Assembly (NCBI GenBank): GCA_019429185.1
Contig: JAHYJH010000016.1
Location: 1-42,706, forward strand
Source of the DNA: Vicingaceae bacterium
Lineage (GTDB): Bacteria > Bacteroidota > Bacteroidia > Flavobacteriales_E > Vicingaceae
DNA length: 42,706 bases
Direction of reading: 5' to 3'
Translations under genes and position numbers: made by a program
In this document: in pieces, positions 10,422-34,664 of the stretch
Position numbering within the stretch: the first letter of the stretch is position 1
Layout: each line of letters opens with the position of its first letter
The notes under the pieces: generated by a model
The model's database searches: none
Told to the model about the DNA's origin: nothing
The model's input: only the letters and a program-made list of their open reading frames with translations

Positions 10422-11210
10422 ATGAAAAAATACATTATCATTCTTTTTTCTATTATTTCAGTAAACTTAGCGGCTCAATCGCAATTAGTAATGCCTTTTG
10501 CTGGAAAAAGTTTTACAACCGATCAATTTGGCTATTACTATGAAATAAGTGATGTTGAAATAAAAAAATATTCAAACAAAGGAAAACTACAATATACTTA
10601 CAGTAATAACTTGCTCGGAGAAATAACAAGTATAGATGTTTTTAATCCAATGAAAATTTTAGTCTATTTTAAAGAATTTACAAAAATAATTACCTTAGAT
10701 AACACCCTTTCTCCAACCTCATCCATAATTGATTTAACTACCTTAGATATTGATGAAACATCGTTGGTTTGTCGTTCTTATAATGATGGAATTTGGTATT
10801 ACAATCCCATTCGTTTTGAACTCATCAGAAAAAACAATGAACTAATAACCACCAACAAATCTGCGCAATTAGCTAATTTATTAAACAAAAATATTCAGCC
10901 CAATTTTTTAGTAGAATACAACAATCAAGTATATTTAAACGACCCGAAAGTTGGAATTTTGGTGTTCGATAACTTTGGAACATATATAAAAACGCTTCCT
11001 ATTTTTGGGTTAACGGAGTTTCAGGTAAAAGAAAAATACTTACTCTTTGTGAATGAAAAAAACGAAATAATGACTTATGATTTTTTTACCTTAGAAAATC
11101 TAACCTACAAAAAATCAACCGTTAAAGAGATTCATTCTGTTCGTATAGAACAAAATCATATTTATATAATCAACAAAAAGAATGAACTTTTTTTAGATAA
11201 GATTAATTAG
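10422..11210 (+). CDS. Exported protein of unknown function, beta-rich
   Basis: A 262-residue protein with a signal peptide (MKKYIIILFSIISVNLAAQS). The mature part is a chain of short beta segments (YYYEISDVEIKKYSNKGKLQ, YSNNLLGEITSIDVFNPMKI) that reads like an incomplete beta-propeller, and no catalytic motif was seen. The proteins this recalls in flavobacteria are annotated only as hypothetical. The TAG stop lies in the left border (TTAATTAGAGTCTGTCT) of the foldback repeat at 11209-11332, so the repeat may have supplied the stop codon. Confidence 0.65.
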   Translation: MKKYIIILFSIISVNLAAQSQLVMPFAGKSFTTDQFGYYYEISDVEIKKYSNKGKLQYTYSNNLLGEITSIDVFNPMKILVYFKEFTKIITLDNTLSPTSSIIDLTTLDIDETSLVCRSYNDGIWYYNPIRFELIRKNNELITTNKSAQLANLLNKNIQPNFLVEYNNQVYLNDPKVGILVFDNFGTYIKTLPIFGLTEFQVKEKYLLFVNEKNEIMTYDFFTLENLTYKKSTVKEIHSVRIEQNHIYIINKKNELFLDKIN

Positions 11211-11332
11211 AGTCTGTCTATAATGTCCGATTTCATCGTTTTTCTCGACCTTCAAATCAGTCATGTACGAAAGTACACTCCTGATTTTCAGTTCATCGAA
11301 ACCTCGAACTCGAACATTATAGTTCAGCCTCT
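11209..11332 (+). repeat. Foldback repeat, copy 1 (124 bp)
   Basis: The ends AGAGTCTGTCTATAATGTCC and ACATTATAGTTCAGCCTCT are imperfect inverted repeats. In the centre, TGTAC-GAAA-GTACA forms a hairpin inside an outer AAATCAG/CTGATTT stem, with an unpaired TCA/CTC internal loop. A second copy in opposite orientation lies at 26562-26686. No protein is encoded. It could be a small mobile element or a structured RNA. It starts at the stop codon of the upstream gene. Confidence 0.75.
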
Positions 11333-11467
11333 ATACTAAATGGACAAACACTAATTAATTCTTCATTTTATTCATAGTTTTAATAGGTTCATTCCTTCTA
11401 ACTAACAACAATAAAAGAAACAATTTTCGAATACTAACGTAATAAATTGATTTACAATTATTTTATT

Positions 11468-12352
11468 ATGATAAAACGTACTTTATTTTTTGGAAACAAA
11501 TGCTCGCTTACCACAAAAGATGAGCAGTTGGTTATTAAAACTGAATTAAGAGAAACTTCTGTTCCTATTGAAGATATTGGTTTTGTAGTTATCGAACATC
11601 AAGAAAGCTACTTATCAATACCTGCTCTTAATAAGCTATCGGAAAACAATGTTGCTGTAATTTTTTGCAATGCTAAACACATGCCGAATTCGATGTTGCT
11701 AAGCTTAAATTCACACCACATCCAACACGAAATTTTTAAAAATCAAATTGAAGCCAGTGAACCATTGAAAAAACAATTGTGGCAACAAACCATCAGAGCG
11801 AAAATTACTAATCAAGCTCATTTATTGGACAAAATCAATAAAACGCAACATCCTTTAAATTATTTAGCTACCAATGTTTTAAGTGGCGATACCGATAATC
11901 GAGAAGCTGTTGCTGCTGCTTATTATTGGAAAAATCTATTTGATTTTGATTTTAAACGTGAACGCTTTGGGGATTTTCCTAACTTATTTTTAAATTATGG
12001 CTATATCGTGCTGAGAGCTGCTGTTGCTCGTGCATTGTCTGGTAGTGGTTTGTTAAACACAATGGGAATCCATCACCGAAATAAATATAATGCCTTTTGC
12101 TTGGCTGACGATATTATGGAACCCTATCGTCCTTTGGTTGATGCGAAGGTTATAGCTATTATGGAAAAATATTCGGATAAAGAACTTACAACAGCCATTA
12201 AATCCGAACTGTTGAGTGTGCTTACCGAAACGGTATATTTTGATGATAAAGTCAGCCCCTTGATGGTTGCATTAACTACTACAACAAGTTCGCTGCAACA
12301 ATGTTTTTCGGGTTCAACTCGTAAACTAATTTATCCGAAATTATGGAACTAA
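11468..12352 (+). CDS. cas1: Type II CRISPR-associated endonuclease Cas1
   Basis: A 294-residue integrase subunit that inserts new spacers as a complex with Cas2. The type II N terminus MIKRTLFFGNKCSLTTKDEQ is intact. The metal-binding residues expected of Cas1 are present: Glu146 in NREAVAAAYYW, His202/His203 in MGIHHRNKYNAF, and Asp214/Asp215 in LADDIMEPYRPLVD. The start is taken as ATG 11468; an upstream in-frame TTG at 11447 would add seven residues outside the family pattern. The gene overlaps cas2 by 10 bases. No csn2 or cas4 is nearby, supporting subtype II-C. cas1 lies more than 7 kb from the cas9 start codon and points toward the array. Confidence 0.95.
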   Translation: MIKRTLFFGNKCSLTTKDEQLVIKTELRETSVPIEDIGFVVIEHQESYLSIPALNKLSENNVAVIFCNAKHMPNSMLLSLNSHHIQHEIFKNQIEASEPLKKQLWQQTIRAKITNQAHLLDKINKTQHPLNYLATNVLSGDTDNREAVAAAYYWKNLFDFDFKRERFGDFPNLFLNYGYIVLRAAVARALSGSGLLNTMGIHHRNKYNAFCLADDIMEPYRPLVDAKVIAIMEKYSDKELTTAIKSELLSVLTETVYFDDKVSPLMVALTTTTSSLQQCFSGSTRKLIYPKLWN

Positions 12353-12672
12353 ATGCTTACCGAATTATGTGGTTATTTGTTTTTTTTGATTTGCCTACCG
12401 AAACTAAAAAGGATAGAAAAAATGCTTCTGTTTTTAGGAAAAATTTATTGAAAAATGGTTTTACCATGATGCAATATTCTGTTTATATGCGACATTGTGC
12501 AAGTGGCGAAGCAGCTGACACACATGAAAAAAGAATTCAACGCATATTACCGCCTTTTGGCAAAGTGAGTATTTTGAGAATTACCGACAAACAATATGGA
12601 AACATTATGAATTTTTGGGGGAAATCTGCACAAGCAATTGAGCCAACTCCACTGCAATTGGAATTGTTTTAA
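12343..12672 (+). CDS. cas2: CRISPR-associated protein Cas2
   Basis: A 109-residue Cas2 with the ferredoxin-like fold signature: strand LFVFFDLP with Asp16, then KDRKNASVFRKNLLKNGFTM and YSVYMRHCAS. Cas2 is the dimeric bridge of the Cas1-Cas2 integrase, and its own nuclease activity is usually dispensable for adaptation. Translation starts inside the end of cas1 (ATGGAACTAA holds both the start and the cas1 stop), so the two are coupled. The array begins 170 bases downstream. Confidence 0.95.
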   Translation: MELNAYRIMWLFVFFDLPTETKKDRKNASVFRKNLLKNGFTMMQYSVYMRHCASGEAADTHEKRIQRILPPFGKVSILRITDKQYGNIMNFWGKSAQAIEPTPLQLELF

Positions 12673-12740
12673 AAAAAACTGTCTCTTCGAGTAGCGAGGC
12701 ACGAAAAACATATCGAGAAGTTGATGGTTTTACAGAAAAC

Positions 12741-12768
12741 AAAAAATGCCTCAATCAAGGCAATTTTA
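12741..12768 (-). terminator. Possible terminator between cas2 and the CRISPR array
   Basis: TGCCT (12747-12751) and AGGCA (12758-12762) form a short stem with a 6-base loop. On the minus strand it is followed by a run of six T and then GTTTT, so it could end the leftward CRISPR precursor transcript. On the plus strand a weaker T run (ATTTTA) could serve cas2. The stem is only 5 bp. Confidence 0.4.
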
Positions 12769-12842
12769 TCCTTAAAAGAAGCATTTTTTATATCCGATAT
12801 TCCCTATTAACTTTTTGACTATTAGAAGTTTTTGCAAGAACA

Positions 12843-13669
12843 AATATCGTGTTTCCTAATCTTTAATCAAACCACAACTGTTTTGCTGAGGATGTAGCCA
12901 ATTATCTAATATCGTGTTTCCTAATCTTTAATCAAACCACAACGAGGAAAGGTATTAATTGTTTTGAGTTCGCAATATCGTGTTTCCTAATCTTTAATCA
13001 AACCACAACCAATTAACCTTAATATTCTATAATAGTCTAAATATCGTGTTTCCTAATCTTTAATCAAACCACAACGATAGGTGTTAAATATTGTAACTGC
13101 TAAAAATATCGTGTTTCCTAATCTTTAATCAAACCACAACCTGACTTTGGCATTAGTGTTTTTAATGCTAAATATCGTGTTTCCTAATCTTTAATCAAAC
13201 CACAACGCAACTCTGCCAATTGTGCTGCTGTTATTGAATATCGTGTTTCCTAATCTTTAATCAAACCACAACTCACTTATCATTGCTATAGGAATGGAAA
13301 GAAATATCGTGTTTCCTAATCTTTAATCAAACCACAACATAGCGTAAATTTTATTTTTATGTCACTCAAATATCGTGTTTCCTAATCTTTAATCAAACCA
13401 CAACGCAATATTTGTGTTTGAAAACTTATAATATAATATCGTGTTTCCTAATCTTTAATCAAACCACAACAAATTGATTAAATTTAATTGGATCTTTTGG
13501 AATATCGTGTTTCCTAATCTTTAATCAAACCACAACACAGGCGACTTTAACGCTTTTGGCGTTCCTTAATATCGTGTTTCCTAATCTTTAATCAAACCAC
13601 AACTTCTTTCAATAACACTTTTTAAAGTATTCAAATATCGTGTTTCCTAATCTTTAATCAAACCACAAC
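12843..13669 (-). CRISPR. Type II-C CRISPR array: 13 repeats, 12 spacers
   Basis: Thirteen identical 36-bp repeats (plus strand AATATCGTGTTTCC...AATCAAACCACAAC) start at 12843, 12908, 12974, 13040, 13105, 13171, 13237, 13303, 13369, 13435, 13501, 13568 and 13634. They are separated by 12 spacers of 29-31 bases, mostly 30. No repeat at either end is degenerate. In crRNA sense the repeat is on the minus strand and begins GTTGTGGTTTG, the usual start of a type II repeat. Its first 24 bases are complementary to the anti-repeat of the tracrRNA at 19231-19253, which fixes the orientation. The array is therefore read leftward, against cas1-cas2. No spacer was seen to match elsewhere in the window by eye. 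Confidence 0.98.
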
Positions 13670-13833
13670 TAATTGTGGTGGAATAGTTAGTGTAATAAAG
13701 CTGTTGTCACCCGACCAACATAACTATCAACAAAATAGTGTTTTAGGGCGTGTTTAATTTCATTTTTTCTATCCTAATTTTAAATAAAACAAGGTGTATG
13801 TCAAAGAGCTTTTTTGCAAAAAGTATTGTAAAG

Positions 13834-14829
13834 TTACGCAGTTACAATTAAATTTACTATCAATTTTATCATCAATTCTTTTTCGTTGGGGTTACTTTGT
13901 GCTACCAGCAAAGCCAAAGCGGTTAATCCGTTGTCGTTTATTTTTAGTTCTCCGCTTTTTTTAAAGCGGTGTTTGTTTTTTTCTAAAAACCAAATAAACA
14001 AAAATGCTCCTATGCGTTTGTTTCCATCGCTAAACGGATGATTTTTGATGCAAAAATACAGCAAATGAGCCGCTTGTTCTTCAATACTTGGATATAAGTA
14101 TTGACTATCGAAAGTTTGTATAATGCTTAATAAAATTCCAGAAAAACTCTTGTCCTTTTCGTTGCCAAACAATTCTGTGGCTTCTTTTTTAGCTATCAAT
14201 TGTTTTTTTAGTTCGGTGATGGCTGGTTTTGCTTCGAGGTACTTTATTTCATAGGTAATTTCGTAACTTAACTTGCCTGTTGCTATAGCATTGCTATCGT
14301 ATTGATTGAGCAACACAAAGCTGTGGGTGTAGTTGGTAATAATATCGAGCAAACCTTTGGCTTCGTTTAATTTTAATTCATCATTTCCTGCTGTTTGTTT
14401 AATCAAATTAACAGCAACTTCTAACTGTTGCATATTTTTCGACAGTTCATTTAATCGCCTTTGGTTCAATGTATAACCTTGTACCAAATGCTCATTTAAA
14501 CGTTGGGTAGCCCATTGGCGGAATTGAGTACCGCGTTTAGAATTAACACGATATCCTACCGAAATTAGAGCCTCTAAATTAAAGTGTTTAATGTTTCTTG
14601 TTACTTCCCTCTTACCCTCTTTTTGAACTACCGAGAAAAACTCGGTTGTTGAACTTTCTTTTAATTCATCTTCTGCAAAAATATTTTTGAGATGAAGACC
14701 AATAGTATCTGTATCTTTTTCAAAAAGCTCAGCCATTTGTCTTTGATTCAGCCAAACACTATCATTTTCAAATAGAACTTTTACTTCAATTTTATTATCA
14801 ACTGACTGATATATTTCTATCTCATTCAT
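13834..14829 (-). CDS. RhuM-Fic/DOC fusion protein
   Basis: A 331-residue protein. Residues 1-115 are a RhuM/KilA-N-like domain (VWLNQRQMAELFEKDTDTIG, NLEALISVGYRVNSKRGTQF, RQWATQRLNEHLVQGYTLN). Residues about 145-331 are a Fic/DOC domain with the motif HPFSDGNKR (His264 to Arg272), closer to DOC (HxFxDxNKR) than to classical Fic (HPFxxGNGR). Fic proteins transfer AMP; DOC phosphorylates a translation factor. Which reaction applies here is unknown. No inhibitory (S/T)xxxE(G/N) antitoxin partner was identified. It stands between the array and cas9, an unusual place, and its 3' end lies 165 bases from the last repeat. Confidence 0.85.
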   Translation of the reverse strand: MNEIEIYQSVDNKIEVKVLFENDSVWLNQRQMAELFEKDTDTIGLHLKNIFAEDELKESSTTEFFSVVQKEGKREVTRNIKHFNLEALISVGYRVNSKRGTQFRQWATQRLNEHLVQGYTLNQRRLNELSKNMQQLEVAVNLIKQTAGNDELKLNEAKGLLDIITNYTHSFVLLNQYDSNAIATGKLSYEITYEIKYLEAKPAITELKKQLIAKKEATELFGNEKDKSFSGILLSIIQTFDSQYLYPSIEEQAAHLLYFCIKNHPFSDGNKRIGAFLFIWFLEKNKHRFKKSGELKINDNGLTALALLVAQSNPNEKELMIKLIVNLIVTA

Positions 14830-14830
14830 T

Positions 14831-15181
14831 TTATGTGGTAAATTTAAAATTTAAATAACAATCATTAAATCCTTGTGTAGCCCATTGGCGAAAGGCTGTT
14901 CCTTGCTTAGATTTTACCCGATAACCAACAGAAATAATCACATCAAGGTTATAAAACACTACTGGTTTGTCAGAATTTGCAATGTGTATTTTTTGCACAT
15001 TGCTTTTTTCTTTAAGCTCTCCTTCTTTAAAAATGTTATTAATATGCTTGGTTATGACTGTCCTGTCACGCTGAAATAAATCTGTTATTTGACTTTGGTT
15101 TAGCCAAACAGTTTCACCATCAAACTGAACGTCTATAGCAGTTTGTTCATCAGGTGTTTTGTATATTACAATTTCATTCAT
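14831..15181 (-). pseudogene. Truncated RhuM-like gene (N-terminal domain only)
   Basis: About 116 residues beginning MNEIVIYKTPDEQTAIDVQF (an upstream in-frame ATG at 15193 would add four). The sequence is clearly paralogous to the next gene, MNEIEIYQ..., with shared VWLNQ, ISVGYRVKSKQGTAFRQWATQ and similar spacing. Homology stops right after RQWATQGFN, and the frame ends CYLNFKFTT one base before the start codon of the RhuM-Fic gene. The C-terminal two thirds of a RhuM-type protein are missing. A deletion between tandem paralogues is the simplest explanation. The remaining domain could still be expressed and bind DNA. Confidence 0.65.
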
Positions 15182-15317
15182 CTTATGCTGCAAGTTTTCT
15201 TATTCATCAACTGTTTTTTTAAATGTTGTATGCCCATTGTAAAATCAGATACTTATTCTTACTATATTGGATAAAACAAAAAGATTATGGCTTGTTTTTC
15301 AGTGCTTTATGTGTTTT

Positions 15318-15782
15318 TTAATAGCCATTTCTATATACATCATTGGCATCGTCTGCAGGTTTGGTAAGCAATTCTGGTATGAGTGCTTTTTGCGTTTGCA
15401 CCACAATTTCGGCAAAGATTTCTACACTCAGCCCCAAATAAAAATCAGCGGGGTTGATGTGTGTTACAAACGCTTTGAGTTGCACACCTTGGTCTAAAAG
15501 GTTAGCCAACACAATGTTTTCATAAGCCGTGAGGTAGCCCAATTTTGCTTCTCCATAACAGACCTCCACTGCAAAACGGTCGTATTTATTGTCGGCTTCT
15601 CGTTTCAAAACAAGCAAATCGCCTGCTTTGATGTTGTTTTTGAGTTTACCAAAACGATAGTGTTGCAAACCCTTTACATAGTTTTCATAAATTTTAACAG
15701 GCTGCTGCACCAACCCCATTTTAGGGATAATCAGCCCGGTGCTGCCCAACCCAAAGGCTTTTAAAAATTCGGTGCGGTTCAT
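15318..15782 (-). CDS. HIRAN-domain protein coupled to cas9
   Basis: A 154-residue protein. Residues about 40-125 form a HIRAN domain, with AGDLLVLKREADNKYDRFAV and LGYLTAYENIVLANLLDQG matching the family pattern (L.RE..N.yD..AV.V...GYl). HIRAN domains bind DNA ends in HLTF/Rad5-type helicases; free-standing bacterial versions are poorly studied. The N terminus, MNRTEFLKAFGLGSTGLIIP, resembles a Tat signal (xRxxFLK plus hydrophobic Gly-rich stretch) but has a single Arg. The start codon overlaps the cas9 stop (ATGA, 15779-15782), so translation should be coupled to cas9. A link to CRISPR function is inference; the protein could instead be an exported housekeeping protein that drifted next to cas9. 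Confidence 0.8.
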   Translation of the reverse strand: MNRTEFLKAFGLGSTGLIIPKMGLVQQPVKIYENYVKGLQHYRFGKLKNNIKAGDLLVLKREADNKYDRFAVEVCYGEAKLGYLTAYENIVLANLLDQGVQLKAFVTHINPADFYLGLSVEIFAEIVVQTQKALIPELLTKPADDANDVYRNGY

Positions 15783-18700
15783 AGTTTTTCTATTTTTCCT
15801 GTTGGGGTGATTTTTACTTTTATTGGGTTATGAGTAACCCAACCCGTTTTTCCTTCTCCAAAACCTCTAATCTGCTTATAATCGTCATCAGTTATAGTTG
15901 ATGATTTATGTTTTCTAAAAAAATAATCTCCTGATGTTAATTTCTGCACCCTGTACAAATGTTCTTTTAGCAATTCATAATTTGGTTTCTCCCAATTTAT
16001 ATCTTCTTCATTTAATCCTAACAAAAACATATCATTAATATGTAATGTTGTTACAATTTCTTTACCTCCAGTTGGTAATTGATAAACAGGGAAGCCTTTT
16101 CTTTTACGTTCTACTACTGTCCAAAAAGTAACAACATCCTCTTTTAAATTGTCGTTTTCATCTTTATAAATTAATACGTGGTGGTTATTTCTTGGATTTA
16201 CCCATTGATTAACATCATTTTTTAATTGTTCTGCTCCGCCAATATTTTCTTTCATTCTAATTTTTAATATAGGTACAGGATTACCATTTTTGTTAGGTAA
16301 AAAAATCTGAGGCTGATTGATTCCATTTTCATCGGCAACAAAAAAAGTATTGGCTGGTATTTTTCCTTTATCATAACCACCTAATTCGGTTACTCTTTTA
16401 AATATTAATTTTCTAATAGTTTCATCTACTACTTTTTCAACTTGCTTTTCTGTTGTTAAGCTTTCTATAGGTTTTCTAACATGAAAAGCTTCTTCACTAA
16501 ATGGAGCTGTTCGTTTACCAAAAACAGTTTCTTTATGCAACTGTCCACGAGCTGCAACGCCTACATTTTTATATTTTTTTCCATTTTTCTCCGTAAAATG
16601 TGTTCTTATCGTTAAAACACTTTTTAAGCGTTTGTGCGAAACTAAAATTTGCTCAGTAGCTTTGGCTGCATCTTGTTGAAATGTTTCCCAAGGCATAGGA
16701 AAATTTTTAAGTTCATGCGTTCTGTTGTGTCTATTCCATCTTGAAAGTTCTTGTAAATAACTTACTTTTCCTAAAGCCATCACCAACGCATCTATAGCAT
16801 GGTGTCTGTGGTCTTCTCTTGTTTTTTCATTTTCGTCATTTAAAATATTGTTTAGCCCCCATTTGTGTCGTAAATTAGAGGTCATTTGCCCTGGTGCTAC
16901 AGTAACTTTTTTACAAATTTGAGCCAAATAATTTTTTGCTTCTTTGCTTATGTAACGTGTATCATTTAATTGTCGAGAAGAAAAATCATCATCAAAATTT
17001 TGCTGTACAAAGCGTTTAAATTTTTGATACGCATTTGGGTATTCTTTTGTGTCGGAAAATAATTTTAATGCACGTTCTTTTATTGCACTCCAATTGGCTT
17101 CATCATTGCCATAAAATTCAAATGGAGTTTTGTCTCCTTTCTTTCTATTCTCGTCAGCCCAACAAACTGTTTTATTTGCAAAACTGTCATTTAACGACCT
17201 GCTCCAAGGATGGATATGTTCTATCTGAACCTCACCTGAAAACAGATCTTTTATACTAATTGGTTTTCCTGTGTAAGGACAAGTTTGTTTACATTCTTCC
17301 CAAAGTTTAAATTTTAAAATATTATCATGTGAAAGGTTAGTATATTTTAATACTTCTGCTTTTACTCTATCGTTTTCTTTTTCTAACCTTTTTTGGTCTC
17401 TTCTTATTTTGTTACGTTGCGATTTAGATATTTTTAAATCTCGAGCCATTTCTACTTTTATTTCATCGAATTTTTTATGTTCGTCTAAAAGTTCATTAAC
17501 TAACTTTCGCAACTCAAACAATGCTGTAGTTACAATTGGGTTTCTTATAGCTTGTATTTGTTTGTCTGCTTCTTTTCCAACTGGTAGTTTTTCGAGTATT
17601 GCTTTAGCTTCAATTGTAGCTGAATGATGATACAGCTTTTTTAGTTCTTTATCAGACAATCCATATTCTTTCTTTAACAAATCTTTTATCGTTTCAATAA
17701 ATCCACCAGCAATTTTTGAACGGACAATATCTTCAACATTATCTACAATAAAATTTCGTTTTTCTTCAGATAACAGTTCCCATTTATTGCCAAAAACATT
17801 TTTTATTCCTCCTAAAACAACTGCAACATCATAAACAAAACTCTGTTTTAAAAATGGCAAAATATTGTTAATGGCTTTTCTGCTTAAACTTGCATAACCA
17901 TCTTTAACATTAAATTTAGAAATATTTGTTGCCTGTTCTTCGTTAAAGCCCCAATTCTTTACAGCATATTCTTTTAAATTAGACTTACTATCAAAAAAAT
18001 AAAGTATGTGCCAAATATCTTCTTGTTCTTTATTTGTAAAATCAAACCATTTTTTACCAAAAAACTTTTTATTACATAAATTCGAAATGGTATAAGTGCC
18101 AACTATTTTATCATCATTTTTATAATTGAACTTAAACTCAGCACTTTCCTTTCCTAAAACTTTTCTTATTCTTTTAAAATCAGGTTTTTCGTTTTCAAAT
18201 AAGAAATTAGCTATTTTTTCACGTTCTTCCTGTGTAATTTTTTTTCCATTACATTCAATAGTATTTACCCATTGATAAACTCTATATTGTTCAAATGGAA
18301 TTGCACTAATTGGGCATTTAGTTTTAGTTGGTTCAAAAGTACAGTAACCAACTAAGTGTTTTTGAGAACGTAAAGGTCTCTGATGAAACAAAATCCCATC
18401 TTCTTTATATCCATCTAGTTTTCTTCCTCCAAAAAGTTGTTTTAATTCATCTGTAAAAGCTGAATGAAACTCTTTTTGTTTATCCCATATCAATTCAAAT
18501 TCATCCACATACATTTTTCTTGTTGTATATCTGTTTCTTATTCTTTCCAAACCATCTTTAAAAGGTTCGTTTTCTTTAGGATATATGTCATATAAATAAG
18601 ATCCTAATGTTTTGTCTTGGATTTTGTCTTGAGTTTCTGTAATTCCAATTTTACCCTCTTTTGCATTTCCTTTAAAAATAGCTCCATCATCGCTTCCACC

Positions 18701-19147
18701 TTTTCTACTATTACTTAAAAATCCTCTCCGTTGGATTAAATGATAAAAAATTCTGCCTATTTCTTCTAAATTCAACTTCTTTGTTAATGCTTTATTTCTT
18801 AATTCATAGGGATTCAAAGCAAACCAATCTTTCAGTTTAGCTGAAGGAAACATTTTTGTATTTTTCCAATCTTTAAAATCTTCCTCATTAAGCGGACACA
18901 TTTTATTTTCAGATAAAGCTTTTAATAAAATTTTCTTTCTTAATCTTCTCCTAAAAAATTGTCTTCTTACACCTCTTGCTCCTGTCCTACTTGCATTTTT
19001 AGAAACTTCATTATCTCCATCACCTAAATTTTCGACACCCATAGGAAAAATCCTACTTCCCATACCAAGTATTTTTTTATTTTCATCATCCACCACAGCC
19101 CAACCAATGCTATTTGTTCCTAAATCTAAACCTAAAATTTTTGCCAT
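15779..19147 (-). CDS. cas9: Type II-C CRISPR-associated endonuclease Cas9
   Basis: A 1122-residue RNA-guided DNA endonuclease, in the size range of compact II-C enzymes. Motifs in order: RuvC-I ILGLDLGTNSIGWAV with Asp8; the Arg-rich bridge helix RRQFFRRRLRKKILLKAL (about 60-78); RuvC-II IKVEMARDL with Glu566; HNH with CPYTGKP, then QIEHIHPWSRS (catalytic His644) and ADENRKKGDKTPFEFYG (Asn667); RuvC-III DHRHHAIDALVMAL with Asp786; then a C-terminal PAM-interacting region of about 300 residues. All catalytic residues are present, so it should be active. The start ATG is followed directly by RuvC-I. It is divergent from the tracrRNA and is followed by the coupled HIRAN gene. The PAM cannot be inferred from this window. 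Confidence 0.97.
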   Translation of the reverse strand: MAKILGLDLGTNSIGWAVVDDENKKILGMGSRIFPMGVENLGDGDNEVSKNASRTGARGVRRQFFRRRLRKKILLKALSENKMCPLNEEDFKDWKNTKMFPSAKLKDWFALNPYELRNKALTKKLNLEEIGRIFYHLIQRRGFLSNSRKGGSDDGAIFKGNAKEGKIGITETQDKIQDKTLGSYLYDIYPKENEPFKDGLERIRNRYTTRKMYVDEFELIWDKQKEFHSAFTDELKQLFGGRKLDGYKEDGILFHQRPLRSQKHLVGYCTFEPTKTKCPISAIPFEQYRVYQWVNTIECNGKKITQEEREKIANFLFENEKPDFKRIRKVLGKESAEFKFNYKNDDKIVGTYTISNLCNKKFFGKKWFDFTNKEQEDIWHILYFFDSKSNLKEYAVKNWGFNEEQATNISKFNVKDGYASLSRKAINNILPFLKQSFVYDVAVVLGGIKNVFGNKWELLSEEKRNFIVDNVEDIVRSKIAGGFIETIKDLLKKEYGLSDKELKKLYHHSATIEAKAILEKLPVGKEADKQIQAIRNPIVTTALFELRKLVNELLDEHKKFDEIKVEMARDLKISKSQRNKIRRDQKRLEKENDRVKAEVLKYTNLSHDNILKFKLWEECKQTCPYTGKPISIKDLFSGEVQIEHIHPWSRSLNDSFANKTVCWADENRKKGDKTPFEFYGNDEANWSAIKERALKLFSDTKEYPNAYQKFKRFVQQNFDDDFSSRQLNDTRYISKEAKNYLAQICKKVTVAPGQMTSNLRHKWGLNNILNDENEKTREDHRHHAIDALVMALGKVSYLQELSRWNRHNRTHELKNFPMPWETFQQDAAKATEQILVSHKRLKSVLTIRTHFTEKNGKKYKNVGVAARGQLHKETVFGKRTAPFSEEAFHVRKPIESLTTEKQVEKVVDETIRKLIFKRVTELGGYDKGKIPANTFFVADENGINQPQIFLPNKNGNPVPILKIRMKENIGGAEQLKNDVNQWVNPRNNHHVLIYKDENDNLKEDVVTFWTVVERKRKGFPVYQLPTGGKEIVTTLHINDMFLLGLNEEDINWEKPNYELLKEHLYRVQKLTSGDYFFRKHKSSTITDDDYKQIRGFGEGKTGWVTHNPIKVKITPTGKIEKL

Positions 19148-19205
19148 AATGTGTGTTTTTAAATAAAATCTAAAAATAGGTATTTTTTTTTATAAAAAAA
19201 AATGC

Positions 19206-19213
19206 TACTTTTA
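19206..19213 (+). promoter_or_regulatory. Possible -7 box of the tracrRNA promoter
   Basis: TACTTTTA at 19206-19213 matches the TAnnTTTG box except at the last base and lies 17 bases before the anti-repeat. The -33 element would fall in a T/A-rich tract and is not clear. The same stretch must also hold the divergent cas9 promoter. Confidence 0.35.
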
Positions 19214-19220
19214 CAGCAAG

Positions 19221-19310
19221 AAAAAAGAATCCTAATCTTTAATCTTATCACAATAAGGCTATATGCCGTAGATGAAAGTCTTTAGTCCCGCTTCGGTGGG
19301 ACTTTTTTTG
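19221..19310 (+). ncRNA. tracrRNA (start approximate)
   Basis: Bases 19231-19253 (CCTAATCTTTAATCTTATCACAA) are an anti-repeat: 20 of 23 positions match the plus-strand CRISPR repeat. The mismatches form a small bulge (plus a G-U pair) in the duplex with the crRNA. The tail continues with a possible small hairpin (AAGGCTATATGCCG region) and ends in a strong terminator: AGTCCCGC, loop TTCG, GTGGGACT (19284-19303) followed by seven T. The RNA pairs with crRNA repeats so that RNase III can process them and Cas9 can load. It is transcribed away from cas9. The 5' end is estimated from the possible -7 box. Confidence 0.88.
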
Positions 19311-26398: not shown

Positions 26399-26922
26399 AA
26401 AAGTTGATTTCTTTTGTATAGTAAGTTATTTTTATATACTCAAACTTAATAGCTTTTCGGGAGGAAAGATAATTAGTTTGAGTTATACTCGCAACAAAAT
26501 ACTAACTATTTTTAGAAAATTCATTTGGTTGCGGTATATTTAGTATCTGTCTTTTTAGTCAAGAGGCTGAACTTTAAAGTTCAAATTCGAGGCATTCGAA
26601 GTTTTGAAAATCAGGAGTTTACTTTTGTAAATGACTGGTTTTTAAAACGAGAATAACGAAGAAGTTGGACTTTAAAGACAGACTCTAATTAACATTTTTA
26701 GATTTTTTTAGCTACGAATACACGAACCGAGCTCGAAAACTCAACGAGGTTAATTTTTAAATTTTCAAACTGCTATATTATTAAATTGTAAAATTGTAAA
26801 ATTGCTACATTGTAAAATTGCTACATTAATAAGTGTTAATATGTTTTAGAAAAAAAAGGAAATGAAAACAAACTTAATTTATTGTTGTTCCTAAATTTGC
26901 GGCTCTATTTTTAAATCGAAAA
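26399..26922. other. 524-base intergenic region upstream of purL
   Basis: No gene is visible. It contains the second foldback repeat (26562-26686), a GAACCGAGCTCG stretch like the one near 4465, and tandem AAATTGTAAAATTGCTACATT repeats (about 26780-26830). A perfect -7 box TAAATTTG (26892-26899) lies 23 bases before the purL start and is its likely promoter; a clear -33 element was not found. Confidence 0.55.
26562..26686 (-). repeat. Foldback repeat, copy 2 (125 bp)
   Basis: Read on the minus strand it matches copy 1 (11209-11332) end to end: the start AGAGTCTGTCTTTAAAGTCC, central AACCAGTCATTTAC-AAAA-GTAAACTCCTGATTTTC, and end ACTTTAAAGTTCAGCCTCT. Both copies are preceded by TTAATT. The arms again pair with each other. 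Where copy 1 has TATAATGT in both arms, this copy has TTTAAAGT in both, so the changes compensate. Confidence 0.75.
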
Positions 26923-31799: not shown

Positions 31800-32195
31800 A
31801 ATACAAACGCAAATATGTAAAATATTTGTTATTGTTTAAGTAAAGTACAAAATTATAAAATAGTACTCAATAAAATATAGTTTATGTAAAAATATTTCTA
31901 ATGGACAAAAAGGATAGATTAATGAGTTAAACTCTGTGGCATACAAATACAAAAAATTACATCCTAATTTCCAAAATTGAGTACTATCAATTACGTAAAG
32001 ATGATGAAACTATAAGTAAGTCATTGAATTACTGATAGCATGAACAAAAGAAAGTAGATAGGTGTTATTTCGCTAAAGTGGTACAAAAAAATGGTGTAAA
32101 TACGATGAAGATAATTAAAGAATAAAATGTGTAAACTTGCAAGTTATAAATTTAGAATGTTGTTGTTTAAAAAGTTATCTTTAATTATTAAACCA
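31800..32195. other. Intergenic region between two divergent operons, with an inverted repeat
   Basis: About 400 AT-rich bases with no convincing gene. ATAGTACTCAAT (31860-31871) and ATTGAGTACTAT (31976-31987) are perfect 12-bp inverted repeats enclosing 104 bases, and each contains the palindrome AGTACT. Between them is only a tiny frame (MDKKDRLMS). The promoters of the HEPN operon (leftward) and the repeat-rich protein (rightward) should lie here. The repeats could be operator sites or remnants of a small element. Confidence 0.4.
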
Positions 32196-34664
32196 ATGAA
32201 ACAAGTAATAAGTTTATTTTTATTAGTAGCAATTCATAGTTCTATTCTTGCCCAAGGAGAACAACAAATCTCTCTTTCAGGAATAGTTACCGAATATTAT
32301 GCAGGAAATAAAATGCAAGGAGTAAGTATAAAAGCTACTTCAAATGGAGCTTATGTTACTAATGTAATTTCCGATGCAAAGGGAAAATATGAAATCTTGT
32401 TAGACTATGAAAATGAATATGTTATTCTGTATGAAAAAGCCAATTTTGAACCCAAAAAAGTTGTTGTAAATACCAAAGGTATTCCTCCTGATAAAAGAAA
32501 TAAAGTAAATGATTTAGAAGTTGAAATGACGTTGTTTCAAAAACATAAAGATTTAAATGTTTCGTTTCTATCTGAACCCATAGGAAAAACAAGGTATGAT
32601 GCAAAAACCAATGATTTTGGTTGGGATATGGGTTATACAGCACCCATTGCTCAAAAATTAAATCAACTTTTAGTTGATTTTCAGCAAAACAAAAAAAAGC
32701 GAGAATTAGAAGATAAAATTAAAGCACAACAATATGCTGATGCAATGAAAGAAGGAGATAAAGCTTTATTTGCCAAAGATTTTGAAGGAGCAAAAAGTGC
32801 TTATACAAGAGCCACTTCAATAGATCCTTCACAACAAGATCCTAAATCGAAATTAGAAATTTTAAATGCCACAATTAAGCAACAACAAGAAGCAGAACGA
32901 TTAGAAAAAGAAGCAAAATTGAAAGCAGAGGCAGAAGCCAAAGCGAAAGCGGAAGCGGAAGCAGCTGCAAAGAAACAAGAAGAAGAACGTATCGCTAAAG
33001 AAAAAGCTGAAGCGGAAGCCAAAGCGAAAGCAGAGGCAGAAGCCAAAGCCAAAGCAGAAGCAGAAGCAGCAGCGAAAAAACAAGAAGAAGAGCGTATCGC
33101 CAAAGAAAAAGCCGAAGCCGAAGCAAAATTGAAAGCAGAAGCAGAAGCCAAAGCGAAAGCAGAAGCGGAAGCAGCTGCAAAGAAACAAGAAGAAGAGCGT
33201 ATTGCCAAAGAAAAAGCTGAAGCGGAAGCAAAATTGAAAGCAGAATTGGAAGCCAAAGCGAAAGCAGAAGCGGAAGCAGCTGCAAAGAAACAAGAAGAAG
33301 AACGTATTGCCAAAGAAAAAGCTGAAGCAGAAGCCAAATTAAAAGCCGAAGCAGAAGCCAAAGCGAAAGCAGAATCTGAAGCAGCAGCAAAAAAACAAGA
33401 AGAAGAGCGTATCGCCAAAGAAAAAGCAGAAGCCGAAGCCAAATTAAAAGCCGAAGCAGAAGCCAAAGCGAAAGCAGAATCCGAAGAAGCAGCGAAAAAA
33501 CAAGAAGAAGAGCGTATTGCCAAAGAAAAAGCAGAAGCTGAAGCCAAATTAAAAGCCGAAGCAGAAGCCAAAGCGAAAGCAGAATCCGAAGCAGCAGCGA
33601 AAAAACAAGAAGAAGAACGTATTGCCAAAGAGAAAGCAGAAGCCGAAGCCAAATTAAAAGCCGAAGCAGAAGCCAAAGCGAAAGCAGAATCTGAAGCAGC
33701 AGCGAAAAAACAAGAAGAAGAACGTATTGCCAAAGAGAAAGCAGAAGCAGAAGCCAAATTAAAAGCCGAAGCAGAAGCCAAAGCGAAAGCAGAATCTGAA
33801 GCAGCAGCAAAAAAACAAGAAGAAGAACGTATCGCCAAAGAAAAAGCCGAAGCCGAAGCCAAATTAAAAGCCGAAGCAGAAGCCAAAGCGAAAGCAGAAT
33901 CTGAAGCAGCAGCGAAAAAACAAGAAGAAGAACGTATTGCCAAAGAGAAAGCAGAAGCAGAAGCGAAGAAACAAGCAGAATTGGAAGCTAAATCAAAAGC
34001 AGAAGCTGAGGCAGCAGCGAAACGTCAAGCAGAAGAGAAAAAACTTAAAGAAATAGCAGAAGCAGAAGCGAAGAAACAAGCAGAATTGGAAGCTAAATCA
34101 AAAGCAGAAGCTGAAGCAGCAGCGAAACGTCAAGCAGAAGAGAAAAAACTTAAAGAAATAGCAGAAGCAGAAGCAAAAAAACAAGCAGAATTGGAAGCGA
34201 AATCAAAAGCCGAAGCTGAAGCAGCAGTGAAACGCCAAGCAGAAGAGAAAAAACTTAAAGAAATAGCTGAACTAGAAGCAAAAAAACAAGCAGAATTGGA
34301 AGCGAAATCAAAAGCCGAAGCTGAAGCAGCAGCGAAACGTCAGGAAGAAGAAAAGAAATTAAAAGAGCTTGCAGAAGCAGAGGCTAAGAAAGCAAAAGAA
34401 GAACAGTTGCTTAAACAAGCAGAGTTAGAAGCATTGAACAAAAAAATGCAAGAAGAACAAGAAAAACGTGATGCAGAGATGAAAGCTAAGGAAGAAGAAC
34501 GATTGAAAGCTGAAGCAGAAGAGACGGCTAAACAAAAAGAAATAGAAGAAAATGCAGAAAAAGCTGGATTTATTATGAAATCAACATCAACTACTGATAG
34601 CAAGAAAAAACCACTTTCAAAAGCTGCTAAACAATTTTCAGGATCTAAAAAAGCAAAGTTTTAA
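32196..34664 (+). CDS. Exported protein with carboxypeptidase-regulatory-like domain, TPR-like segment and long 35-residue-repeat coiled coil
   Basis: An 822-residue protein counted from ATG 32196, chosen because it begins the signal peptide MKQVISLFLLVAIHSSILAQ; an in-frame upstream ATG at 32127 would add 23 residues before it. Residues about 25-110 resemble a CarboxypepD_reg-like beta sandwich (ISLSGIVTEYYAGNKMQGVS). A TPR-like pair follows (about 178-225, ADAMKEGDKALFAKDFEGAK). From about 245 to 745 the protein is an Ala/Glu/Lys helix built of 35-residue units: ten of type A (ending KKQEEERIAKEK) and four of type B (ending KRQAEEKKLKEI). Thirty-five residues equal five heptads, so a continuous coiled coil or single helix is expected. 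The basic tail may anchor to the cell envelope. The role could be structural; it is not otherwise known. Confidence 0.8.
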   Translation: MKQVISLFLLVAIHSSILAQGEQQISLSGIVTEYYAGNKMQGVSIKATSNGAYVTNVISDAKGKYEILLDYENEYVILYEKANFEPKKVVVNTKGIPPDKRNKVNDLEVEMTLFQKHKDLNVSFLSEPIGKTRYDAKTNDFGWDMGYTAPIAQKLNQLLVDFQQNKKKRELEDKIKAQQYADAMKEGDKALFAKDFEGAKSAYTRATSIDPSQQDPKSKLEILNATIKQQQEAERLEKEAKLKAEAEAKAKAEAEAAAKKQEEERIAKEKAEAEAKAKAEAEAKAKAEAEAAAKKQEEERIAKEKAEAEAKLKAEAEAKAKAEAEAAAKKQEEERIAKEKAEAEAKLKAELEAKAKAEAEAAAKKQEEERIAKEKAEAEAKLKAEAEAKAKAESEAAAKKQEEERIAKEKAEAEAKLKAEAEAKAKAESEEAAKKQEEERIAKEKAEAEAKLKAEAEAKAKAESEAAAKKQEEERIAKEKAEAEAKLKAEAEAKAKAESEAAAKKQEEERIAKEKAEAEAKLKAEAEAKAKAESEAAAKKQEEERIAKEKAEAEAKLKAEAEAKAKAESEAAAKKQEEERIAKEKAEAEAKKQAELEAKSKAEAEAAAKRQAEEKKLKEIAEAEAKKQAELEAKSKAEAEAAAKRQAEEKKLKEIAEAEAKKQAELEAKSKAEAEAAVKRQAEEKKLKEIAELEAKKQAELEAKSKAEAEAAAKRQEEEKKLKELAEAEAKKAKEEQLLKQAELEALNKKMQEEQEKRDAEMKAKEEERLKAEAEETAKQKEIEENAEKAGFIMKSTSTTDSKKKPLSKAAKQFSGSKKAKF
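32930..34385 (+). repeat. 105-bp tandem repeats inside the coiled-coil gene
   Basis: The DNA repeats with a 105-bp period, for example at 33360, 33465, 33570, 33675, 33780 and 33885, where AAAGCGAAAGCAGAATC recurs. The central copies are almost identical, suggesting recent expansion. After about 33955 a second 105-bp repeat type takes over for four copies. Unit number is likely to vary between strains, and long antisense frames over this stretch are by-products of the codon pattern. Confidence 0.9.

Follow-up and report, generated by a model that had tools for sequence, protein, structure and literature searches.

The two foldback repeats in the window, by which we mean the whole 42,706-nucleotide stretch of Vicingaceae DNA that was analyzed, are copies of a real, widespread, and structured MITE, and both its identity as such an element and its mobility are well supported. 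As a whole, the observations are best explained, with good confidence on our part, by non-autonomous mobile elements that form a Bacteroidota branch of an ERIC/IRU-like family. Units with AGWGTYTGTCYNTAAAGTC TIRs have entered T-ANNT-A targets and duplicated 4 bp. In the mechanism that we propose, DDE transposases encoded by ISNCY-type elements with matching ends (IS-B in this genome) would act on these units in trans. The fold would be kept because the folded single strand, most likely RNA, serves the element, possibly as a transposition cofactor or by turning an insertion at the 3′ end of a transcript into a harmless or useful one.

Two copies in the window

The initial annotation had described two repeats in opposite orientation, and a direct reading of the window finds both of them in place (Table 1). 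Its sequence details are borne out as well. The outer-stem changes affect both arms (copy 1 has TATAATGT/ACATTATA, copy 2 has TTTAAAGT/ACTTTAAA), the inner hairpin apex TGTAC/GTACA of one copy becomes TTTAC/GTAAA in the other, and the unpaired AGTCAT/ACTCC loop and CTCCTGATTTTC are identical in the two. The borders that had been drawn fell slightly short, as the mobile unit continues to a second, outer terminal repeat.

Compared with dinucleotide shuffles, the fold energies of the two copies have z-scores of −5.2 and −4.7, with 0/200 shuffles as good, and the common core gives two matches in the window against 0.00 expected. In the central hairpin of copy 1, the GA/GA internal loop is invariant and the apex stem variable; this core is common to ERIC. 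Without the element, the reading frame of the ORF at 10422-11210, which ends in TAG at the left border of copy 1, would end in TAA.

Table 1. Coordinates of the two copies and their parts in the window; the covariance models R1 and R2 and the alignment A3 are described in the text
Feature	Position	Strand	Basis
Left 4-bp target duplication AATT, copy 1 (target T-AATT-A)	11205..11208	.	Read directly
Stop codon TAG of upstream ORF 10422-11210	11208..11210	+	Last T of the duplication and the element's first AG
Copy 1, complete mobile unit	11209..11352	+	R1, 165.1 bits, E 6e-35
Copy 1, TIRs: left AGAGTCTGTCTATAATGTC; right outer AGTGTTTGTCCATTTAGT (minus strand, read inward)	within 11209..11352		
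Copy 1, folded core, structure-bearing strand	11207..11333	-	R2, 129.6 bits minus vs 42.2 plus
Copy 1, conserved central hairpin CAGGAG-TGTAC-TTTC-GTACA-TGACTG (minus strand)	11259..11289	-	A3 columns 55-82
Right 4-bp target duplication AATT, copy 1	11353..11356	.	Flank reading
AAAT at right end of copy 2 (duplication, one mismatch)	26538..26541	.	L031: AATT/AAAT
Copy 2, complete mobile unit, TTTAAAGT subtype	26542..26686	-	R1, 163.5 bits, E 1.5e-34
Copy 2, folded core, structure-bearing strand	26561..26688	+	R2, 137.1 bits plus vs 34.4 minus
AATT duplication at left (AGAGTCTG) end of copy 2	26687..26690	.	Flank reading (L031)

The neighborhood of copy 1 is a type II CRISPR-Cas locus (11447-19258) with cas1, cas2, and an array of about 13 repeats (12842-13698). 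RhuM/Fic and HIRAN genes lie between the array and cas9 (RuvC_III, HNH_4; 15779-19147, minus strand), and a partial repeat copy upstream of cas9 (19230-19258) may be a tracrRNA anti-repeat. A CRISPR or tracrRNA role for the element, suggested by the position of copy 1 next to cas1, was rejected because copies occur genome-wide. The window also holds a long array of 105-nt tandem repeats (32789-34243) within an 845-aa ORF (32127-34664).

Copies, ends, and target sites

Further copies, which the initial annotation had proposed to look for, are plentiful. BLAST gave 51 matches in the source genome (G000), and R1, a covariance model built from 26 copies and applied at E ≤ 0.01, found at least 69 there, as many as there were candidates scored. 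The six genomes of the genus all carry copies (at least 69, 54, 34, 8, 8, and 8), and elsewhere in the family copies have a patchy distribution, with six genomes from four further genera carrying them. The exact core pattern was present in at least 96 stretches in GTDB contigs from Bacteroidota-type MAGs, with contig titles naming Bacteroidetes, Bacteroidales, Salinivirgaceae, Saprospiraceae, and Flavobacteriales as well as a few “Chlorobiota” or Marinimicrobia MAGs; among IMG/VR viral contigs, it was not found. A sample of the phylum yielded more relatives in two families, f78 and f84, and as eight candidates were scored per genome in this sample, genomes without a match weigh little.

The mobile unit is 144-145 bp long, lacks a transposase gene, and consists of a foldback of ~126 bp and an outer right end of ~19 bp. 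It begins with the left end AGAGTTTGTCC, continues with the foldback, which closes in CAAACTCT, and finishes with the ~19 bp closing in GACAGACACT. The terminal sequence is thus found twice at the right end, where the inner copy closes the hairpin and the outer copy is the true end. The TIRs in this genome are AGWGTYTGTC, and the TIR pattern AGWGTYTGTCYNTAAAGTC occurs 166 times in the genome (≤1 mismatch) against 0 for a reversed-pattern control. In the genomes that contain the exact core pattern, the same inside is found between different ends (AGAGTTTGTCCATAATGTC, AGTGTTTGCAAGAAAACG, AGTGGCTATAAGAAAACG, and AGTCTCAGCAAGAAAAC), and there are at least four TIR classes in all.

Copies are flanked as T-ANNT/element/ANNT-A, i.e., by a 4-bp target duplication. 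Exact identity of the 4-bp flanks was seen in 20 of 30 complete copies, compared with 7.7 ± 2.0 when the right flanks were shuffled (0/10000 shuffles). Alternatively, the duplication may be taken as the inner 2 bp (NN), the T and A then being the element's own; the two readings are formally equivalent, and neither amounts to a duplication of TA. L037, L045, and L159 are tandem insertions, in which a second element directly adjoins the first in a shared target.

Empty sites were sought by comparing the joined flanks of several copies with the five other genomes of the genus. The L005 site is empty in G002 (GACTAACTAACAGGTTTCAGG; TAACTA), G001, G003, and G004 and filled in G005, the L022 site is empty in G001, and the L003 site is empty in G001 to G004. 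Filled and empty sites have the identical host stop codon. The element therefore shows the features of a MITE: it is short, encodes no transposase, has TIRs, duplicates its target, and has empty counterparts of its insertion sites in sister species.

Relation to ERIC

The core of the element resembles the ERIC PCR primer sites, a lead that was then tested with R2, a covariance model built from Bacteroidota copies alone with no ERIC included. In three E. coli strains (L287-L289), R2 matches the ERIC that separates ybhJ from ybhI, with positions 1-128 aligned (23.7-29.3 bits). On a 568-kb Klebsiella replicon, it gave two matches (E 2e-6 and 8e-6), both ERIC and none other, and on a complete 4.94-Mb E. 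coli chromosome, the record of which is filed as a plasmid, it gave ten, all ERIC/IRU and nine of them full length. ERIC has the same strand preference as the Bacteroidota element (G.U 33, A.C 2; consensus energy −42.4 vs −27.3).

Earlier work describes ERIC as a single stem-loop (PMC2267715) that duplicates TA and has TA termini (PMC2759123), reports it from Enterobacteriaceae and Vibrionaceae (PMC10969869), and ascribes to it an orientation-dependent effect on upstream mRNA in Yersinia (PMC2229807). No report of ERIC in Bacteroidota was found in our literature search, which covered mainly freely available papers. Likeness to ERIC/IRU/RU-1 extends to the length of ~127 bp, one long imperfect hairpin, the presence of TIRs, intergenic location, the same structure-bearing strand, the core CAGGAG-nTTAC-NNNN-GTAAn-TGACTG, and the AAGGC and AACGCA motifs. 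The central core CAGGAGCTTAC...GTAAGTGACTG that characterizes ERIC is present with a variable apex stem, many of the copies having been fetched by the core pattern, and the ~127-bp unit agrees in sequence and structure, as R2 aligns ERIC over all 128 positions. The Bacteroidota element differs in its 4-bp T-ANNT-A targets, its extra 19-bp outer right end, its four or more TIR classes, and its one-sided placement at stop codons. Where ERIC has the TA target duplication and TA termini, we find a 4-bp ANNT inside T-ANNT-A, and where ERIC has the TIR TATACTC...GAGTATA, this genome has AGWGTYTGTC, with at least three different sequences taking its place elsewhere in Bacteroidota. Because its TIRs differ from those of ERIC, the element is named “ERIC-like” rather than ERIC proper.

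It is unlikely, though the strongest of the alternatives that we weighed, that the similarity to ERIC arose by convergence on a short palindromic core and not by common descent. The best conserved stretch is just ~30 nt, and the resemblance of the arms to those of ERIC is modest: outside the core, the arms are more alike than column-permuted controls, clearly so for the f78 relatives (5-7 sd) and modestly for ERIC (3.8 sd on the left and 2.1 sd on the right). Convergence does not, however, sit well with full-length matches over positions 1-128, with ERIC alone being found in 4.94 Mb, with equal length (~127) and equal strand asymmetry, or with the intermediate sequences in other Bacteroidota (f78 and f84). 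On its sequence and predicted structure, the Bacteroidota element is a branch of the ERIC-like family outside Proteobacteria.

Other known elements share more general traits. Correia/NEMIS, RUP, CIR, and other bacterial MITEs (PMC2229807) are likewise small and non-autonomous, with TIRs, target duplications, and stable hairpin transcripts, but have different ends. The betaproteobacterial repeat element BRE (PMC3110155) and sX9 (RF02228) are also repeated intergenic or small structured elements, BRE being likened by description. A second enterobacterial repeat with the ends GAGCCTATCCCA...TGGGATAGGCTC has a related core, CCGGAG-CGTAC..GTACG-TGAGG (L290, L291, L293, and L294), and is possibly a known one (box C or another MITE).

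Fold, covariation, and strand

The initial annotation took the paired changes as a mark of selection for folded structure. Two copies are suggestive in this respect, and the 41 distinct copies from many genomes provide strong covariation. These Bacteroidota copies were aligned as A3 (134 columns and 39 pairs, oriented as the reverse complement of window copy 1), in which 96.3% of the paired cells can pair compared with 80.0% when partners are shuffled and 35-40% when they are slid. Compensatory change was seen at 24 of the 39 pairs, with 241 doubly changed cells vs 71.8 in the shuffled alignment. As related copies inflate such pair counts, the changes were also placed on a tree, on which 46 branches alter both sides of a pair and 42 of these preserve pairing. 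When these columns were re-paired at random (1000 times), the number of branches altering both sides averaged 6.4 and never exceeded 20; when the pairs were slid, it was 2-13. Both outcomes that would have told against selection on the fold, a lack of more copies and a lack of excess compensating change, are thereby contradicted.

The loops behave differently from the stems. The GGAG/UGAC loop around the apex, with tandem G.A and G.U, is invariant in 41/41 copies, which were largely fetched by a pattern containing those bases, and AGGC opposite AACGMAG, which lies outside the fetching pattern, is nearly invariant in A3.

The two strands are not equivalent. On the A3 strand, there are 160 G.U cells and 12 A.C cells, or 68 vs 11 without three wobble-dominated pairs. 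R2 was built from the A3 strand, and fold energies were therefore used as an independent measure of strand; the A3 strand folds better in 41/41 copies (mean MFE −53.0 vs −34.3 kcal/mol). A palindrome selected as a duplex or cruciform would lack such an asymmetry, and the selected form is therefore a single strand. RNA is the simplest reading of this folded strand, and single-stranded DNA is possible given that G.T is also stabler than A.C in DNA.

It is improbable that we are dealing with an ordinary MITE in which long terminal repeats give rise to the palindrome incidentally and template-switch correction between the arms accounts for the paired changes. The element is indeed a MITE, with target duplications and empty sites, and arm-to-arm correction creates paired changes without any RNA. 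However, correction would erase the GGAG/UGAC and AGGC/AACGMAG loops, which remain fixed and mismatched across the phylum while the stems vary. In addition, G.U is tolerated on one strand only (160 vs 12), and the inner part is conserved though transposition should need the TIRs only.

Several copies are altered at single helices or loops. In L107 (contig C153 of G005), the apex stem CCCGATAGTTATCGGG replaces TTTAC/GTAAA and the flanking loops are retained, so that a whole helix has been exchanged. An insert, ACTCACAATATTAAATTGTTTTTTAGTTGTGTTCGTGAGTTCGCTTCGCTCAGTTCTG, is found at one spot of the right arm in L010, L011, L016, L023, L024, and L025, and a related piece, TCGTGAGTTCGCTTCGCTCAGTTC, stands in place of the left arm in L002, L178, and L199. 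Foreign small hairpins (CCCGCTTAAAGCGGGG, CTGCCTACCGGACAGGCAG, and ATCCGCCAGCTGGCGGAT) lengthen the element at loops in the manner of helix expansions (L142, L150, L160, and others).

Placement at stop codons

At the left (AGAG) end, the stop codon of the preceding gene lies inside the target in 25/54 copies of the source genome and in 42/94 others (67/148 in total), compared with a background of ~9% for target hexamers outside genes (20/255 and 73/789; Fisher 1e-10 and 3e-16); as ORFs were called mechanically, these counts are approximate. The right end has a stop codon in the target in 3/39 and 6/76 cases (total 9/115), which equals the background and is not a depletion. Since the opposite orientation is at background and not depleted, the bias probably reflects either insertion preference or positive selection. 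The stop occurs in two of the three frames, the third being nearly absent (3/148), a pattern expected of insertion at natural stop codons rather than at random coding sites. The idea that ORFs end at the element because it interrupted a coding sequence was rejected, both on the rarity of the third frame and because empty sites keep the stop.

The structure-bearing strand usually runs antisense to the gene that the element abuts (72 of 91 co-directional sites), and simple read-through of that gene therefore does not produce the folded RNA. No Rfam family exceeded its gathering score in the window or over the elements of 20 loci. The sX9 family (RF02228) reached 35.4 bits against a cut-off of 44, on the antisense of the core in a single f78 copy (L263) and over one half. 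An intrinsic terminator was rejected because no U-tract follows the hairpin, and a Bacteroidota promoter (TAnnTTTG) in the apex was rejected because it is present in some loops only and is not conserved.

There is accordingly little to commend a host structured RNA gene or cis-regulator, such as an attenuator or terminator, that became repeated by chance, even if strong covariation and a position right at stop codons in one orientation are what such a gene or regulator would show. The insertions are polymorphic among sister species and have unrelated flanking genes, the hairpin lacks a U-tract, no Rfam family reaches its cut-off, and the conserved strand lies opposite to the sense strand of the adjoining gene.

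Candidate partner element and transposase

Many contigs of the draft genome end in one of two multi-copy elements, IS-A or IS-B. At contig ends, IS-B reads AGTGTCTGTCTATAAAGTCC directly after AAAT/ATTT/AATT/AAGT, and its start, AGTGTCTGTCTATAAAGTCCAATTTTTTTC, is the right outer end of the MITE, with the target type of the MITE. IS-B, an ISNCY-type element of the same genome, has in common with the right outer end of the MITE the end AGTGTCTGTCTATAAAGTC and AAWT-type targets; it differs in that the parts of IS-B that were read, all from incomplete copies, have no hairpin core in common with the MITE. A broken internal copy of IS-B (L103) retains the end of a DDE transposase (PF13751, 1.5e-6; NCBIfam ISNCY, 2e-20), of which just 92 residues are left, and the ISNCY match is consequently well under the whole-protein cut-off of the model. 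The same locus contains an IS110-type transposase fragment (PF02371).

No complete IS-B was recovered from the draft genome, where copies are collapsed at contig ends and those found inside contigs, at C230 and C154, are broken. An IS-B transposase was found neither in other genomes of the family nor among 295 genomes sampled in the class, and the fetched loci contained no intact TIR-bounded IS, solely chance pairs around host genes. As no intact IS-B was recovered and the transposase is absent from relatives, we infer the partnership for this genome alone, in which the ISNCY-type IS-B is the likely partner moving the MITE. The MITE is far more widespread than the IS-B transposase, and other transposases must therefore serve elsewhere.

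IS-A, which is preceded by MITE arms, was rejected as the parent because it is a different element, which some copies carry in their hairpin apex and which occurs outside MITEs too. Its contig ends read CCCGATAG / ATTCTGTG, and it sits at CCCGATAG both in such apices and elsewhere (contig ends L061, L104, and L105).

The initial annotation had also considered a hairpin acted on by a Y1/REP-type transposase and proposed a search for the gene. Such genes exist, as the genome yields six Y1_Tnp (PF01797) matches that include at least two full-length ones, but none of the four Y1 loci that were fetched has an element copy adjacent to it. The TIRs, 4-bp target duplications, and clean empty sites that we observe are not produced by Y1 transposition, and the traits of REP/REPIN sequences (no target duplication, a hairpin of 20-40 bp, and a Y1 gene alongside) are lacking. 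Foldback repeats close to gene ends and strand-specific folding would fit a single-strand recombinase, yet it is very improbable that the repeats are hairpins of the REP/BIME or REPIN type, recognized as a folded single strand and moved by a Y1 (RAYT) transposase. This idea is mostly refuted by the target duplications and further weakened by the size of the units, which at 144 bp, with two outer ends, greatly exceed REPs of 20-40 bp.

Implications for the ERIC-like family

ERIC repeats have been used in strain typing for more than 30 years without an agreed origin or role. A broader scheme, which we put forward tentatively and consider rather doubtful in its full form, is that in an ERIC-like family spanning at least two phyla, the folded single strand, probably an RNA transcribed antisense to the adjoining gene, would take an active part in transposition or targeting. 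Differing DDE transposases, corresponding to the TIR classes, would move a common structured cargo and place it tail-to-tail with genes whose stop codon falls in the target.

The Bacteroidota relatives, in which stems are rewritten and loops kept, provide deep comparative data beyond the few similar copies of E. coli. They reveal which strand is under selection and which loops matter, show that the inside persists as the transposase-binding ends are swapped, and link placement to stop codons in a single orientation.
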